A stretch of DNA of 64,000 bases, taken from the NCBI GenBank assembly GCA_016195385.1, contig JACPZS010000039.1:1-64000 (forward strand), given 5' to 3'. Below the pieces are notes generated by a model. That model had not been told where the DNA came from and did no database searches. It saw only the letters and a list, made by a program, of their open reading frames with translations. The stretch's first letter is position 1; each line of letters starts with the position of its first letter. This DNA is from Verrucomicrobiota bacterium. Its GTDB lineage: Bacteria > Verrucomicrobiota > Verrucomicrobiia > Limisphaerales > JACPZS01. The translations under genes were made by a program, and so were the position numbers. This document shows positions 47,038 to 52,944 of the stretch, piece by piece.

Positions 47038-47298
47038 ATGACAGCGAGCATTTCGACAAAAGGCCAGATTGTTCTCCCGAAGCAATTGCGTGAGTTGGAC
47101 AAGATTCAACCGGCGGATGATTTCCATGTTACCCGTTTAGGCCCCGGAAAGTATCTCTATCAGCGGATTCAAAAGCCGCGCCAGCAAAACGCGACACTAA
47201 CCATTGGCAAAGACGGGCTGCCCATCTTTCGAGTTCCGAAGGGCGCTCCGAGGTTAACGACCGAAGAAGTCAAACGATTGGAAGCTGAGTTGCCGTGA
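47038..47298 (+). CDS. AbrB/SpoVT-type antitoxin (VapB-like)
   Basis: MTASISTKGQIVLPKQLRELDKIQPADDFHV; 4-nt overlap with a PIN gene. Confidence 0.8.
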   Translation: MTASISTKGQIVLPKQLRELDKIQPADDFHVTRLGPGKYLYQRIQKPRQQNATLTIGKDGLPIFRVPKGAPRLTTEEVKRLEAELP

Positions 47299-47696
47299 CT
47301 CGCCTGCTCGACACCAATGTGCTCATTGCCCTGACGTGGCCGAACCACACCGAGCACCGCAAAACCAGACAATGGTTTCGAGGAGTGGACAGTTTTGCGA
47401 CCTGCCCGATCACTCAACTTGGCTTCTGCCGTATCTCCACGCACTTGAAGTACGCGGCCAGCCCGGATGATGCGTTGGCCGCCATTCGTGCGTGGATTGG
47501 GCATGTTAACCACGAATTCTGGCCGGACGATGTTAGGATGGATGACGCCCGGCTACCCAAGATTCGCGGCCACCAACAGTTCACGGACGCTTATCTCTTC
47601 GCCCTAGCCCGCAAACACTGCGGAAAGTTGGCCAGCTTGGATCTCGGCTTTCGCAGCCTGGCCACTGCCGCACCCGCTCATTTGGAACTCATTTAG
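47295..47696 (+). CDS. PIN-domain toxin (VapC-like)
   Basis: MTRLLDTNVLIALTWPNHTEHRKTRQWF, ITQLGFCRI, TDAYLFALARKHCGKLASLDLGF. Confidence 0.85.
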   Translation: MTRLLDTNVLIALTWPNHTEHRKTRQWFRGVDSFATCPITQLGFCRISTHLKYAASPDDALAAIRAWIGHVNHEFWPDDVRMDDARLPKIRGHQQFTDAYLFALARKHCGKLASLDLGFRSLATAAPAHLELI

Positions 47697-47738: not shown

Positions 47739-48299
47739 GTGTCGCAGCGGATACTTGGCGGGTTTCTCGGATTGGTAGTTCCACAAACGTTGGAGTCGCC
47801 GGCGGTGTTTTCAGAGAACTCCTCTGAAGTGATAGATTTTCCGAAACCCGTCCGTTTAACGGTTATGAAACGCATCGGAACATTCGCAACTTCTGGCCAC
47901 CGCTCAACGAAGAGGGGAATCACCATTTCATTGACTGCAAGAACGATTTCAGTCGCCGGGCAACTTTTCGCCGCGGCGGAATCAATTCTGCGACCTGTCG
48001 GGCGAAATTATTCGGCGGTTGCACAAACTTCTTCGACCAGCGCGCAAACCCTCGCTGCGACTACAACGCCCCTTGCAACGTCTGCGAGAACTTTTGCAGC
48101 CATTGAACAATCTCTTGCGACGGTTGCCAGAACTCTATCAGCGTCCGCAATAACTCTGGCGACCGTCAAAACAATTCTAGCAAAGCCCGCGAGAACTATT
48201 TCGGCGGTCCAAACAACTCTTGCAGCGGCTGCGAGAACTATTTTGACCGCCGCTACAACTGTTTTAGCCCCTAAAACAACCCTCGCAACGGCTCAATAA
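47739..48299 (+). CDS. Questionable ORF containing most of the 21-bp array as 7-residue repeats
   Basis: GTG start (alternative ATG at 47865); C-terminal heptads such as TLATVKT, TISAVQT, TLAAAAR, TVLAPKT. May not be a real protein. Confidence 0.3.
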   Translation: MSQRILGGFLGLVVPQTLESPAVFSENSSEVIDFPKPVRLTVMKRIGTFATSGHRSTKRGITISLTARTISVAGQLFAAAESILRPVGRNYSAVAQTSSTSAQTLAATTTPLATSARTFAAIEQSLATVARTLSASAITLATVKTILAKPARTISAVQTTLAAAARTILTAATTVLAPKTTLATAQ

Positions 48300-48341
48300 A
48301 CTGTTTTAACCGCTGAAATAACCCTCTCAACCATTGAAAAT
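47922..48341 (+). repeat. Degenerate tandem array: 20 units of exactly 21 bp
   Basis: Units fall at 47922+21k with no indels. Conservation over 20 units: pos1 A 17, pos5 T 18, pos11 C 17, pos21 A 18. Example units ACTCTTGCAGCGGCTGCGAGA and ACTGTTTTAGCCCCTAAAACA. Confidence 0.9.
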
Positions 48342-48443
48342 GGCCTAAAAACTCAAAAAACAGCAAAAAAGCCCGAAAAGCACCCAGACTTAGCACCCCA
48401 GATCCCAGACCCAAAACCCGAAACCCGAAACCCTAACAAGTTT

Positions 48444-49124
48444 ATGCCCAAAGCCTACTTCATCCCGCCCGACGATGCCGGCAAATGCACCTGGCTCAGT
48501 AACTTCGCCGCCAAACTGCCCACTCACGCCCCGCTCGTCGGCGTCACTCCGGCGGAAGTCGCTGCCGTCCAGTCCGACAACCTCATGTTCGCCTACGCCT
48601 GCGACGCCACCAACCAGTTCAAGCAATGCGCCCAGGAATGGGTCGCCTTCAAAAACGCGCTGCGCAACGGTTCCGCCGTGGGCAGCCTGCCCGTCGCGCC
48701 CGCGCTCGCTGGCCCGCCGGCTCTCGTGCCGGCGGATATTTTCGGGCGCAACTCCGCGCTCGGCTCGCGCCTCAAGAAACACGCGGCCTACACCGACGCG
48801 ATGGGCCAGGACCTGGGCTTGATTGGCGCGGAGCAAACCACCGATCTCGTCAACCTCAAGCCGGGCTTGAAAGTGCAGATGCAGGCGGGGCGGCCAAACA
48901 TTCTGTGGACGAAGCAGGGGATGGACGGCTTGGAGATTTGGGTGGATCGCGGCACAGGCACGTTTGCATTCCTCGCGATTGACACCGTGCCAGATTATCT
49001 GGACACGGCCGCGTTGCCCGCCGCTGGCGCGAGTGCGGTGTGGAAATACAAGGCGATCTATCGTCTGCACGACGAACAGGTTGGCCAGTGGAGTGACATC
49101 CTCAGCGTCAGTGTGATGGGATGA
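48444..49124 (+). CDS. Uncharacterised protein, possibly with a C-terminal FN3-like domain
   Basis: 226 aa; MPKAYFIPPDDAGKCTWLSNFAAKL... and C-terminal GLEIWVDRGTGTFAFLAIDTVPDYLD...YKAIYRLHDEQVGQWSDILSVSVMG. Confidence 0.7.
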   Translation: MPKAYFIPPDDAGKCTWLSNFAAKLPTHAPLVGVTPAEVAAVQSDNLMFAYACDATNQFKQCAQEWVAFKNALRNGSAVGSLPVAPALAGPPALVPADIFGRNSALGSRLKKHAAYTDAMGQDLGLIGAEQTTDLVNLKPGLKVQMQAGRPNILWTKQGMDGLEIWVDRGTGTFAFLAIDTVPDYLDTAALPAAGASAVWKYKAIYRLHDEQVGQWSDILSVSVMG

Positions 49125-49354: not shown

Positions 49355-50158
49355 ATGAACTCAACTCGAACCCAAGACGGACAAAGGAACGGCTTCACGC
49401 TCATCGAACTGCTCGTCGTCATCGCCATCATCGCGATTTTGGCGTCAATGCTTCTCCCGGCGCTCGCGAAGGCCAAATCGAAAGCGCAATCTATAAAGTG
49501 CTTGGGCAATTTGCGACAGCTAGGCTTGGCATGGCACCTGTACACGCTCGATCACGACGACGCAATGCCTCCCAATTTTGAAGGCCCGGATAGCGGAGGA
49601 CTGAGTCGAGGCCTGCCGGGTTCGTGGGTTCTTGGTAATGCACAATCAGACACGACGACCAGCAATGTTCAGGGCGGCGTTCTCTACATTTATGTCAATA
49701 GCAGTGCTGTGTATCGATGCCCGGCAGACCGGTCCAGCGTCAGGGCTGTTCCAAGCCTCGTCCGTACACGCAGCTACTCGCTCAATGGCTGGTTGAACGA
49801 TGACGAAACTCGTTTGGGATACCCGCCCGAATTGTTCAAGCCCTACCTCAAGACAAAGTCCGCGCAACTGCTCAAGCCTGTGCAAGTCTTCACGTTCATT
49901 GATGAACATGAGCAAAGTATCGACGATGGTTCCTTTATCACGGTTTTCCCAGCAGTCGCAGCACCGGGCAACCAAGGCGATTGGATCAGCTTGCCTTCAG
50001 ACCGGCACGACCAAGGATGCAGCGTTGGATTCGCAGATGGTCATGCCGAGCACAAGCGATGGAAAGCTCCCAAACGGTTCGAAATCCCAAGGCGCCCTCC
50101 CGTCGGGGAAGATTTGAAGGATCTTCGTCAAATGCTTGAGTGGATCCAGCAGGAATAA
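49355..50158 (+). CDS. Prepilin-type protein with H-X9-DG motif
   Basis: [47 protein letters not shown] and [16 protein letters not shown]. Confidence 0.9.
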
Positions 50159-50232
50159 GGGCTTACTGTCGCTTGCTCCTCGCTGCCCGCGTCGTCTCGA
50201 ATACCTTTGTCATCGATCTCACAGTCAGCGAT

Positions 50233-52944
50233 ATGAAATTGCAAAACTACTTTCTCACACTGTTGCTTATTTTTGTGGTTTGCCCCGGCGACACCACTGC
50301 TCAGGCGCAAGCTTCCGTCGCTGTAGCGGCGTGGGGAAACAACGATAGTGGCCAAACGACCGTGCCCGTCGCGGCGCAAAGTGGTGTGATGGCAATTGCA
50401 GCCGGAGCGCGTCACACCGTGGCCTTAAAGAGCGACGGCTCGGTCGTAGCGTGGGGACGTAACGACAGCGGCCAAGCGACAGTGCCCGTCGTGGCGCAAA
50501 GCGGGGTCACAGCGATTGCAGCAGGAGGCAACCACACCGTGGCCTTAAAGAACGACGGCTCGGTTGTGGCGTGGGGATGGAACGAAAACGGCCAAACGAC
50601 CGTGCCCGTCGCGGCACAGAGTGGCGTTATAGCGATTGCAGCAGGAGACGCTCACAGCGTGGCCTTAAAGAGCGACGGCACCGTCGTGGCGTGGGGAGAC
50701 AACAATTCAGGCCAGGTTACAGCAGCTCCAACAACGAACGCTCCCTCTGCGACAGCAAGTCCAGTCACACTGAACGGCCAAGTCTTGAGCGGGGTGAAGG
50801 CGATTGCGGCCGGAGGTTATCACACCGTCGCCCTAAAAAGCGACGGCTCAGTGGTAGCTTGGGGACAAAACGACTCCGGCCAGGTCAATGGAACCACGTC
50901 ACGGTCGTTTGCGATAGCGAATCCAGTCAGACTGCGTGGGCAGACCTTGGACACGGTGTTATTGAGTGGAGTGATTGCGATTGCGGCTGGCGAATGGCAC
51001 ACTGTCGCCTTGAGGAACGACGGCTCAGTAGTGGCTTGGGGACACAACAGTTACGATGAAACAACAGTACCCGTCACGGCACAAAGCGGAGTGGTGGCGA
51101 TTGCGGCAGGCGGTTCCTACACAGTGGTTTTGAAGAGCGACGGAACAATTGTCGCATGGGGATATAATGAAAACGGCCAAATGATGGTGCCTATGGCGGC
51201 GCAGGGTAGAGTGACGGCGCTTGCTGCAGGCTGGTCTCACGTTGCGGCGCTCGTCATTCCAACTGCTCCCACCATCAACGTGTCTCCTGTGAGCTTGGCT
51301 GTAAGCGCGTGGCAAAGCCCCAGCTTTACCGTGACGGCCACCGGTTTCCCCCTTTACTACCGGTGGCGTAAAGACGGCGTAAATCTTGTGGGTGCGATGA
51401 ACGCCACTTACCGCCTGCCGTTCGCGCAGACGAATCATGCAGGCGAATATACCGTGGTGGTGAGCAATCCCGCCGGGAGTGTGACCAGCACCCCTCCGGC
51501 GGTGCTGACCGTGAACGCGAGCATTTCTCCAGGCACAGTCGTGGCGTGGGGAGAAAATGCTTCAGGCCAATTGGACGTACCAGTCGCGGCACAGAGCGGA
51601 GTGACGGCCATTTCGGCGGGAGGGATCCACTACTACGGCGATCGGTCGATTGGTTACAGCTTGGCCTTGAAGAACGACGGCTCAGTGGTGGCGTGGGGAA
51701 CCACCAATAATGCCTCGACCGGTCCAGACTTCCGCCAGTCGCAAGTGCCCGCTGCGGCCCAAAGCGGGGTGACGGCCATCTCGGCGGCAGACTTTCATGC
51801 CGCAGTTTTGAAGAATGACGGCACGGTGGTGGCATGGGGGGACAACCGTGCCGGCCAAGTGACAGGAATTCCAACATTCGACCAAGCAGGCGAGCCATAT
51901 TTTCCGATAGCAAGTCCCGTCACACTGAACGGCCAAGTGTTGAGAGGCGTGACGGCGATTGCGGCAGCAGGGCTTCACACGTTCGGCCTGGGCGGTTGGG
52001 GGCATACAGTGGCCCTGAAAAAGGACGGAACGGTCGTTGCTTGGGGCCACAACGGCGGCGGACAGGTCACAGGAACTCCGACGACCAACGACCCTCCGGC
52101 TGCGATCGCAAGTCCCGTCATATTGGACGGGCAGGTGTTGAGTAATATCACCGCGATCTCGGCGAGAGCAATTCACACTGTGGCATTGAAGAACGGCGGC
52201 ACGGTGGTGGCTTGGGGCTTCAACACGCACGGACAAGTCACTGGAACTCCATCAACCAACAATGGAGCTGAAGTTGCAATCGCAAATCCAGTCATACTGG
52301 ATGGCCAAGTCCTGAACGGCGTGAAAGAGATTTCGGCTGGAGCGTATCACACCGTGGCCTTGAAGTACGATGGCACAGTGGTGGCTTGGGGAGCCAACTT
52401 CTATGGCCAAGTGACAGGGACCCCAACGACTAACGAACCTTACTCCGCTATCGCAAGTCCAGTCACACTGGAAGGTCAGGTCTTGACCGGCGTGAAAACG
52501 ATCGCGGCAGGTGGTTATTACACCGCGGCCTTGAAGAACGACGGCACGGTCGTGGCGTGGGGAGACAATGGTGTGGGCGAGATCACAGGGGCTACAACAA
52601 CGAACAACTTTGGGGGTTGGGGGAGTGCAATAGCGAATCCAGTCACACTAAGAGGTCAAGTCTTGAGCGGCGTGACGGCAATCGCGGCGAGTTACATTCA
52701 CACCGTGGCTCTTCTCGGCAATGTCCCGCTGCTGCCCTCTCTAAATACTATGACCAGCGGCAATGAAATCATCATCTCCTGGCCCACGAATGCCGTCGGG
52801 TTCAGACTGCAAGCAACGACCAGTTTGGTTCCACTGGTCAATTGGATCGATTACGCCAGTCCTTCTGCGGTTCATGGTGGGCAATTCACCGTCACAAATA
52901 GTCTTTCCGGCGACGCACGTTTTTTTCGGCTACTGAAGCGGTAA
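50233..52944 (+). CDS. Exported RCC1-repeat protein with a central Ig-like domain
   Basis: Signal peptide MKLQNYFLTLLLIFVVCPGDTTAQA; repeated VVAWGxNxxGQ...AIAAGxxHTVALKxDGS; Ig-like PTINVSPVSLAVSAWQSPSFTVTATGFPLYYRWRKDGVNL. Confidence 0.88.
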   Translation: MKLQNYFLTLLLIFVVCPGDTTAQAQASVAVAAWGNNDSGQTTVPVAAQSGVMAIAAGARHTVALKSDGSVVAWGRNDSGQATVPVVAQSGVTAIAAGGNHTVALKNDGSVVAWGWNENGQTTVPVAAQSGVIAIAAGDAHSVALKSDGTVVAWGDNNSGQVTAAPTTNAPSATASPVTLNGQVLSGVKAIAAGGYHTVALKSDGSVVAWGQNDSGQVNGTTSRSFAIANPVRLRGQTLDTVLLSGVIAIAAGEWHTVALRNDGSVVAWGHNSYDETTVPVTAQSGVVAIAAGGSYTVVLKSDGTIVAWGYNENGQMMVPMAAQGRVTALAAGWSHVAALVIPTAPTINVSPVSLAVSAWQSPSFTVTATGFPLYYRWRKDGVNLVGAMNATYRLPFAQTNHAGEYTVVVSNPAGSVTSTPPAVLTVNASISPGTVVAWGENASGQLDVPVAAQSGVTAISAGGIHYYGDRSIGYSLALKNDGSVVAWGTTNNASTGPDFRQSQVPAAAQSGVTAISAADFHAAVLKNDGTVVAWGDNRAGQVTGIPTFDQAGEPYFPIASPVTLNGQVLRGVTAIAAAGLHTFGLGGWGHTVALKKDGTVVAWGHNGGGQVTGTPTTNDPPAAIASPVILDGQVLSNITAISARAIHTVALKNGGTVVAWGFNTHGQVTGTPSTNNGAEVAIANPVILDGQVLNGVKEISAGAYHTVALKYDGTVVAWGANFYGQVTGTPTTNEPYSAIASPVTLEGQVLTGVKTIAAGGYYTAALKNDGTVVAWGDNGVGEITGATTTNNFGGWGSAIANPVTLRGQVLSGVTAIAASYIHTVALLGNVPLLPSLNTMTSGNEIIISWPTNAVGFRLQATTSLVPLVNWIDYASPSAVHGGQFTVTNSLSGDARFFRLLKR

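Follow-up and report, generated by a model that had tools for sequence, protein, structure and literature searches.

The 64,000-nucleotide stretch of Verrucomicrobiota DNA that we analyzed (the window) contains an array of 21-bp units followed, on the same strand, by an unannotated gene. The coordinates of these features and of their neighbors are collected in Table 1.

Table 1. Features in and around the array, numbered from the first nucleotide of the window.
Feature	Position	Strand	Remarks
Small MazE-like ORF, then PIN-domain ORF	47038-47693		just upstream of the array; MazE-like match weak (E 0.09), PIN-domain match E 2e-10; resembles a toxin-antitoxin pair
ORF overlying the array	47739-48299		ends in unit 18; no convincing family match
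Array	47922-48341	+	20 degenerate 21-bp units; column consensus dyad-symmetric
Spacer between array and gene	48342-48443	+	102 bp
7-bp tandem repeat, ACCCGAA x3.6	48409-48433		inside the spacer, before the gene
Linked gene, unannotated	48444-49124	+	226 aa, predicted helices and Fn3-like fold; accompanied by arrays
ORF with prepilin-like N-terminus	49355-50158		
934-aa ORF	50140-52944		VVAWG repeats, RCC1-like by eye
120-bp tandem repeat	50328-50697		

Division of the array sequence into 21-bp steps confirms the 20 units, with zero insertions or deletions, that a first-pass annotation had described. Re-reading of the units likewise bears out the column bias reported there at three positions, with A at position 1 in 17 of 20 units, C at position 11 in 17 of 20 and A at position 21 in 18 of 20. 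Units 1-2 and 6-20 are clear, the latter strongly so, and units 3-5 are weak. When the array is compared with itself, the fraction of matching positions is 0.496 at lag 21, 0.56 at lag 42 and 0.50 at lag 63, as compared with 0.252 for dinucleotide shuffles (z = 10.9, 12.6 and 10.5, respectively). Codon shuffles in the three frames give a mean of 0.311 ± 0.022 and a maximum of 0.40, and the 21-bp peak stays above them. Within the 64-kb window, a lag-21 score of 0.52 over 300 bp occurs solely at this array. Tandem Repeats Finder does not report the array when run on the window because its units are too divergent.

The 226-aa product of the linked gene has no sequence match in Pfam, NCBIfam, PHROG or PDB. 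Helices are predicted in its N-terminal part, at residues 11-31, 36-75, 99-112 and 118-124, and a fibronectin-III-like beta sandwich is predicted at residues 143-225. Using an AlphaFold2 model made from a 44-sequence alignment (mean pLDDT of 91, pTM of 0.56), Foldseek returns fibronectin-III-like domains as the best matches. A phage, plasmid or viral origin was rejected; tblastn searches with the gene gave zero matches in 72,556 plasmids and zero in 50,697 phages.

Relatives of the gene are often present in several copies per genome. The source genome itself has several paralogues (93, 70, 63 and 37% identity) plus fragments, and a 21-bp-periodic segment lies upstream of each paralogue that was fetched. 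A scan of named genomes yielded 61 loci from Verrucomicrobia, Methylococcaceae/Crenothrix/Methylobacter, Gallionella, Thiodictyon, Nitrosomonadales and one Bacteroidetes MAG, and for most of those with upstream DNA, lag 21 or 42 is the best of lags 8-60. Later searches found relatives in 6 of 291 genomes in the phylum (at most 9 copies each) and in 27 of 59 genomes of one family (at most 20 copies each); the loci fetched from these searches repeat the upstream 21-bp pattern. At a fixed threshold, a lag-21 array is found upstream of 46 of the 73 copies in a subset, and the same threshold gives 0 of 73 at lags 19, 20, 22 and 23 and 0 of 77 in regions downstream of the gene. In the final set, a 21/42-bp-periodic array lies directly upstream of 80 of 111 distinct copies. 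Approximately 28% of gene copies lack an above-threshold array, and many of these show a sub-threshold peak at lag 21. Arrays of this kind thus recur in other genomes, with the same gene beside them (46/73 and 80/111). The earlier suggestion of a length-constrained element is supported.

Spacing within the arrays is nearly invariant. In 41 arrays comprising 521 units, 466 of 480 steps from one unit to the next are 21 bp, nine are 20 bp and five are 22 bp; the step model penalized larger deviations slightly more yet permitted them, and none was chosen. The units also share a symmetry. A palindromic column consensus (p<0.05) was found in 32 of 46 arrays, against 4 of 46 for a mirror control, and in 19 of 34 later arrays, against 2 of 34. 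The total is therefore 51 of 80 arrays versus 6 of 80 for the control, with approximately 36% of arrays lacking a significant dyad. In the purine/pyrimidine profile of the arrays, power at 10.5 bp is higher than expected (z = 5.1).

The sequence of the units, in contrast, is not kept. Mean unit identity within the 41 arrays is 0.56, and in one genome (G364) each copy has units of its own, for example CCGCAAAACCATTCTGCGGAA, CGACCGGCCCGTCCAGGCAAA and GCTTGAACGGCCCAGCGGTTC. Loci L160 and L161, which belong to one genome, are 90.7% identical from approximately position -110 to the end of the gene, and their arrays have the same period and unrelated units. Locus L110 has flanks in common with L112 and L114, and its units differ from theirs, with half of the unit recognizably related. 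Within the arrays of L114, L157 and L159, the units are nearly identical to one another. The divergence of units in the window array therefore reflects the time since the last local amplification. This corrects the earlier reading, because high divergence alone does not show that an array is old. The array is a real, gene-linked element that keeps its period, near-freedom from indels and dyad symmetry while its sequence turns over.

Three functions had been offered in the first-pass annotation, namely a structured transcript, a phased protein-binding array and a heptad peptide. A phased array of DNA sites fits best because the 21-bp spacing corresponds to two helical turns, the units are dyad-symmetric, slips of ±1 bp are the only ones tolerated and the unit sequence turns over. 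The reading that we prefer, to which we assign a probability of roughly 0.45, is that the array is a set of palindromic putative DNA sites on one face of the helix that control the downstream gene. It would be a cis-acting element upstream of a multicopy gene cassette, in which approximately 6-21 palindromic sites spaced exactly two helical turns apart would all be presented on the same side of the DNA. The bound protein that we infer, either DNA-binding or architectural and acting as a dimer or oligomer, could then occupy the array cooperatively and set how the downstream helical/Fn3 gene is expressed, or its local topology. Local amplification of one unit or of a pair of units would give each copy its own sequence, and the 21-bp register and the dyad would be kept through this turnover. 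Weighing against phased sites is the finding that arrays within one genome differ in motif, and a single sequence-specific binder therefore cannot serve all of them. The gene copies without an above-threshold array and the arrays without a significant dyad, both counted above, also speak against it, as do the weak avoidance of forward-strand stops, the small number of copies with an HTH gene nearby and the MazE-like/PIN pair, in place of an HTH regulator, upstream of the window array.

More tentatively, the arrays may belong to a kind of bacterial cis-element not described before, one that passes on its spacing and dyad symmetry rather than its base sequence. Each copy would have its own 21-bp unit, repeated approximately 6-21 times, and might be recognized through its shape or through a partner protein specific to that copy. 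If this is true, then a DNA element present in at least two phyla is invisible to sequence-based searches (Rfam, Tandem Repeats Finder, BLAST), because period and symmetry are what is conserved. It would also permit a direct test of shape- or phase-read DNA arrays in bacteria, and would provide the unnamed, spreading gene family with a regulatory element that can be tested. Our literature searches found no paper describing the array.

The alternative that survives best, although we consider it unlikely, is that the cassette carries the array along as a neutral or selfish minisatellite, in which in-register misalignment keeps the 21-bp length and palindromic units amplify more readily. Like minisatellites and VNTRs upstream of genes, the arrays gain and lose units, mostly in multiples of 21 bp, and undergo local homogenization; some appear freshly homogenized (L114, with a lag-21 match of 1.00, and L157, L159 and L154), and unit sequence differs from copy to copy. 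However, a drifting satellite would be expected to fix other periods once a 20- or 22-bp unit had been amplified, whereas the period is always 21 (or 42) bp across unrelated bacterial groups, with no cases at lags 19, 20, 22 or 23. Such a satellite would also be expected to be often lost or to occur elsewhere, whereas the array keeps its place in front of a single gene family. Near-identical units together with drift of the period between lineages, as slippage would produce, is not the pattern found.

It is improbable that the array is translated, its 21 bp being seven codons of a fast-evolving heptad-repeat peptide. Some observations do point in this direction. A forward frame is open in 77 of 80 arrays where 68.5 ± 3.1 are expected (63 versus 61.5 on the reverse strand), differences between close copies number 189, 177 and 255 at codon positions 1, 2 and 3, and signal-peptide-like starts lie in frame with the arrays of L003 and L157. 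This avoidance of stops on the forward strand is weak, and we leave it unexplained rather than dismiss it. Nevertheless, the heptad peptide is disfavored because single-base shifts, which account for 14 of the 480 unit steps, break the reading frames. The frame changes mid-array in L019/L023, and stops interrupt every forward frame of four arrays (L001, L018, L028 and L072), that of the window included; in the window a TAA falls within unit 18. No one frame remains open and in register throughout the array, and no residue pattern is common to the copies. The forward strand has hardly more ATGs with a Shine-Dalgarno sequence than the reverse (12 versus 8), and the excess of entropy at codon position 3 is equal on the reverse strand.

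Transcription of the array as a chain of 21-nt hairpins, forming a structured leader RNA, is very unlikely. Compared with dinucleotide shuffles, the arrays show better folding (mean z = -3.0), and they keep a slight advantage over column shuffles (mean z = -1.3). In addition, the L057-type copies have a sigma70-like TTGACA...TATGAAT before the array. The folding is equally strong on the reverse strand, however, and RNA hairpins are disfavored because covariation within units (2519 pairs observed versus 2604 expected) and an excess of G·T over A·C on the best axis (401 versus 436) are both absent, which is what sites in duplex DNA would show. Covariation across array-wide long hairpins is absent as well, and searches of 12 loci against Rfam gave no gathering match and no family. 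Hairpins of individual units were rejected when compensatory changes in the proposed stems were not found, and a single long hairpin spanning the array was rejected as well; outliers such as L004, L011, L072 and L075 contain phase shifts.

The cassette as a whole appears to have spread by duplication, because homology among Methylumidiphilus-type (L057-type) copies runs from the promoter-like TTGACA to the stop codon of the gene with unrelated flanks on either side, and because the same internal-deletion derivative, with the array kept, is present at two loci of a single genome, L063 and L067. In this derivative, which L063, L065 and L067 have in common, a 48-bp inverted repeat (TTTTCTTTTCACCCCG...CGGGGTGAAAAGAAAA) replaces codons ~21-171. 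That the array serves as an end or recombination site during this spread is very doubtful: locus L179 of G364 does have an array copy and upstream flank with the family gene absent, but the unit contains no recombinase, no convincing target-site duplication was seen, and a clean empty site was not found in the genus of G364, where the flanks are rearranged.

The phased-site reading invites comparison with known systems. Partition sites and multi-site operators likewise consist of phased dyad sites on one helix face, and the arrays share their dyad sites at whole-turn spacing; they differ from centromere-like arrays in that no partition genes are seen beside the array here and the motif differs per copy. 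Iteron arrays at plasmid and phage replication origins are also tandem sites spaced by approximately two turns beside a gene. Iterons, however, are near-identical repeats with Rep encoded alongside, whereas the units here are conserved neither within nor between copies (identity of 0.56), the neighboring gene is not Rep and belongs to no Pfam, NCBIfam or PHROG family, and the arrays lie on chromosomal MAG contigs with no plasmid or phage match rather than on a plasmid or phage replicon. REP/BIME elements with RAYT transposases are palindromic, multicopy and intergenic as well, but the arrays are tandem, of fixed period and of differing sequence, and the linked gene encodes a helical and Fn3 protein and not a Y1 transposase. 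CRISPR and other guide arrays are similarly regular and beside a gene, but here there is no constant repeat with variable spacers. A role as RNA guides was rejected, since matches in G364 (≤3 mismatches) to two units lie in arrays, except for a single site at C2:700471.

Some arrays in one Verrucomicrobia family are preceded, at a distance of 101-157 bp and on the same strand, by small HTH genes, which we regard solely as a lead toward a candidate partner protein. Those at L107, L129 and L152 are LuxR/GerE-type genes that are homologous to one another (45-52% identical over 116-128 aa), and that at L155 is HTH_31-like. Other relatives of the LuxR/GerE-type protein have no array, and a general LuxR-array partnership was rejected with just these three loci known. 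Most copies lack an HTH gene, and the upstream neighbors of the window array are the MazE-like/PIN pair and not an HTH regulator.

Several further features were observed near individual copies. Locus L121 of the source genome (approximately 1268-1560, G000:C67) has a 21-bp array with the family gene not nearby, and this array adjoins a PemK-like reading frame that is seemingly interrupted. Microsatellite-like 8-bp repeats (lags 16 and 24) lie upstream of the array in L006, L021, L128, L138 and L150. In L157, L107, L092 and L179, a short tryptophan-rich ORF or N-terminal extension (MALWNSG.., MNWDxGTWDxGFWD) is situated between array and gene. A collagen-like or phage tail-fibre-like gene (MFDPNLP...) lies downstream of several G364 copies among L153-L160, at approximately 4.9-5.9 kb, and in L159 and L160 a 23S rRNA-intervening-sequence-type gene lies between it and the family gene copy. 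Locus L005 (= L007) contains the C-terminal 58 codons a second time, at 2283-2457, immediately 3' of the full gene.
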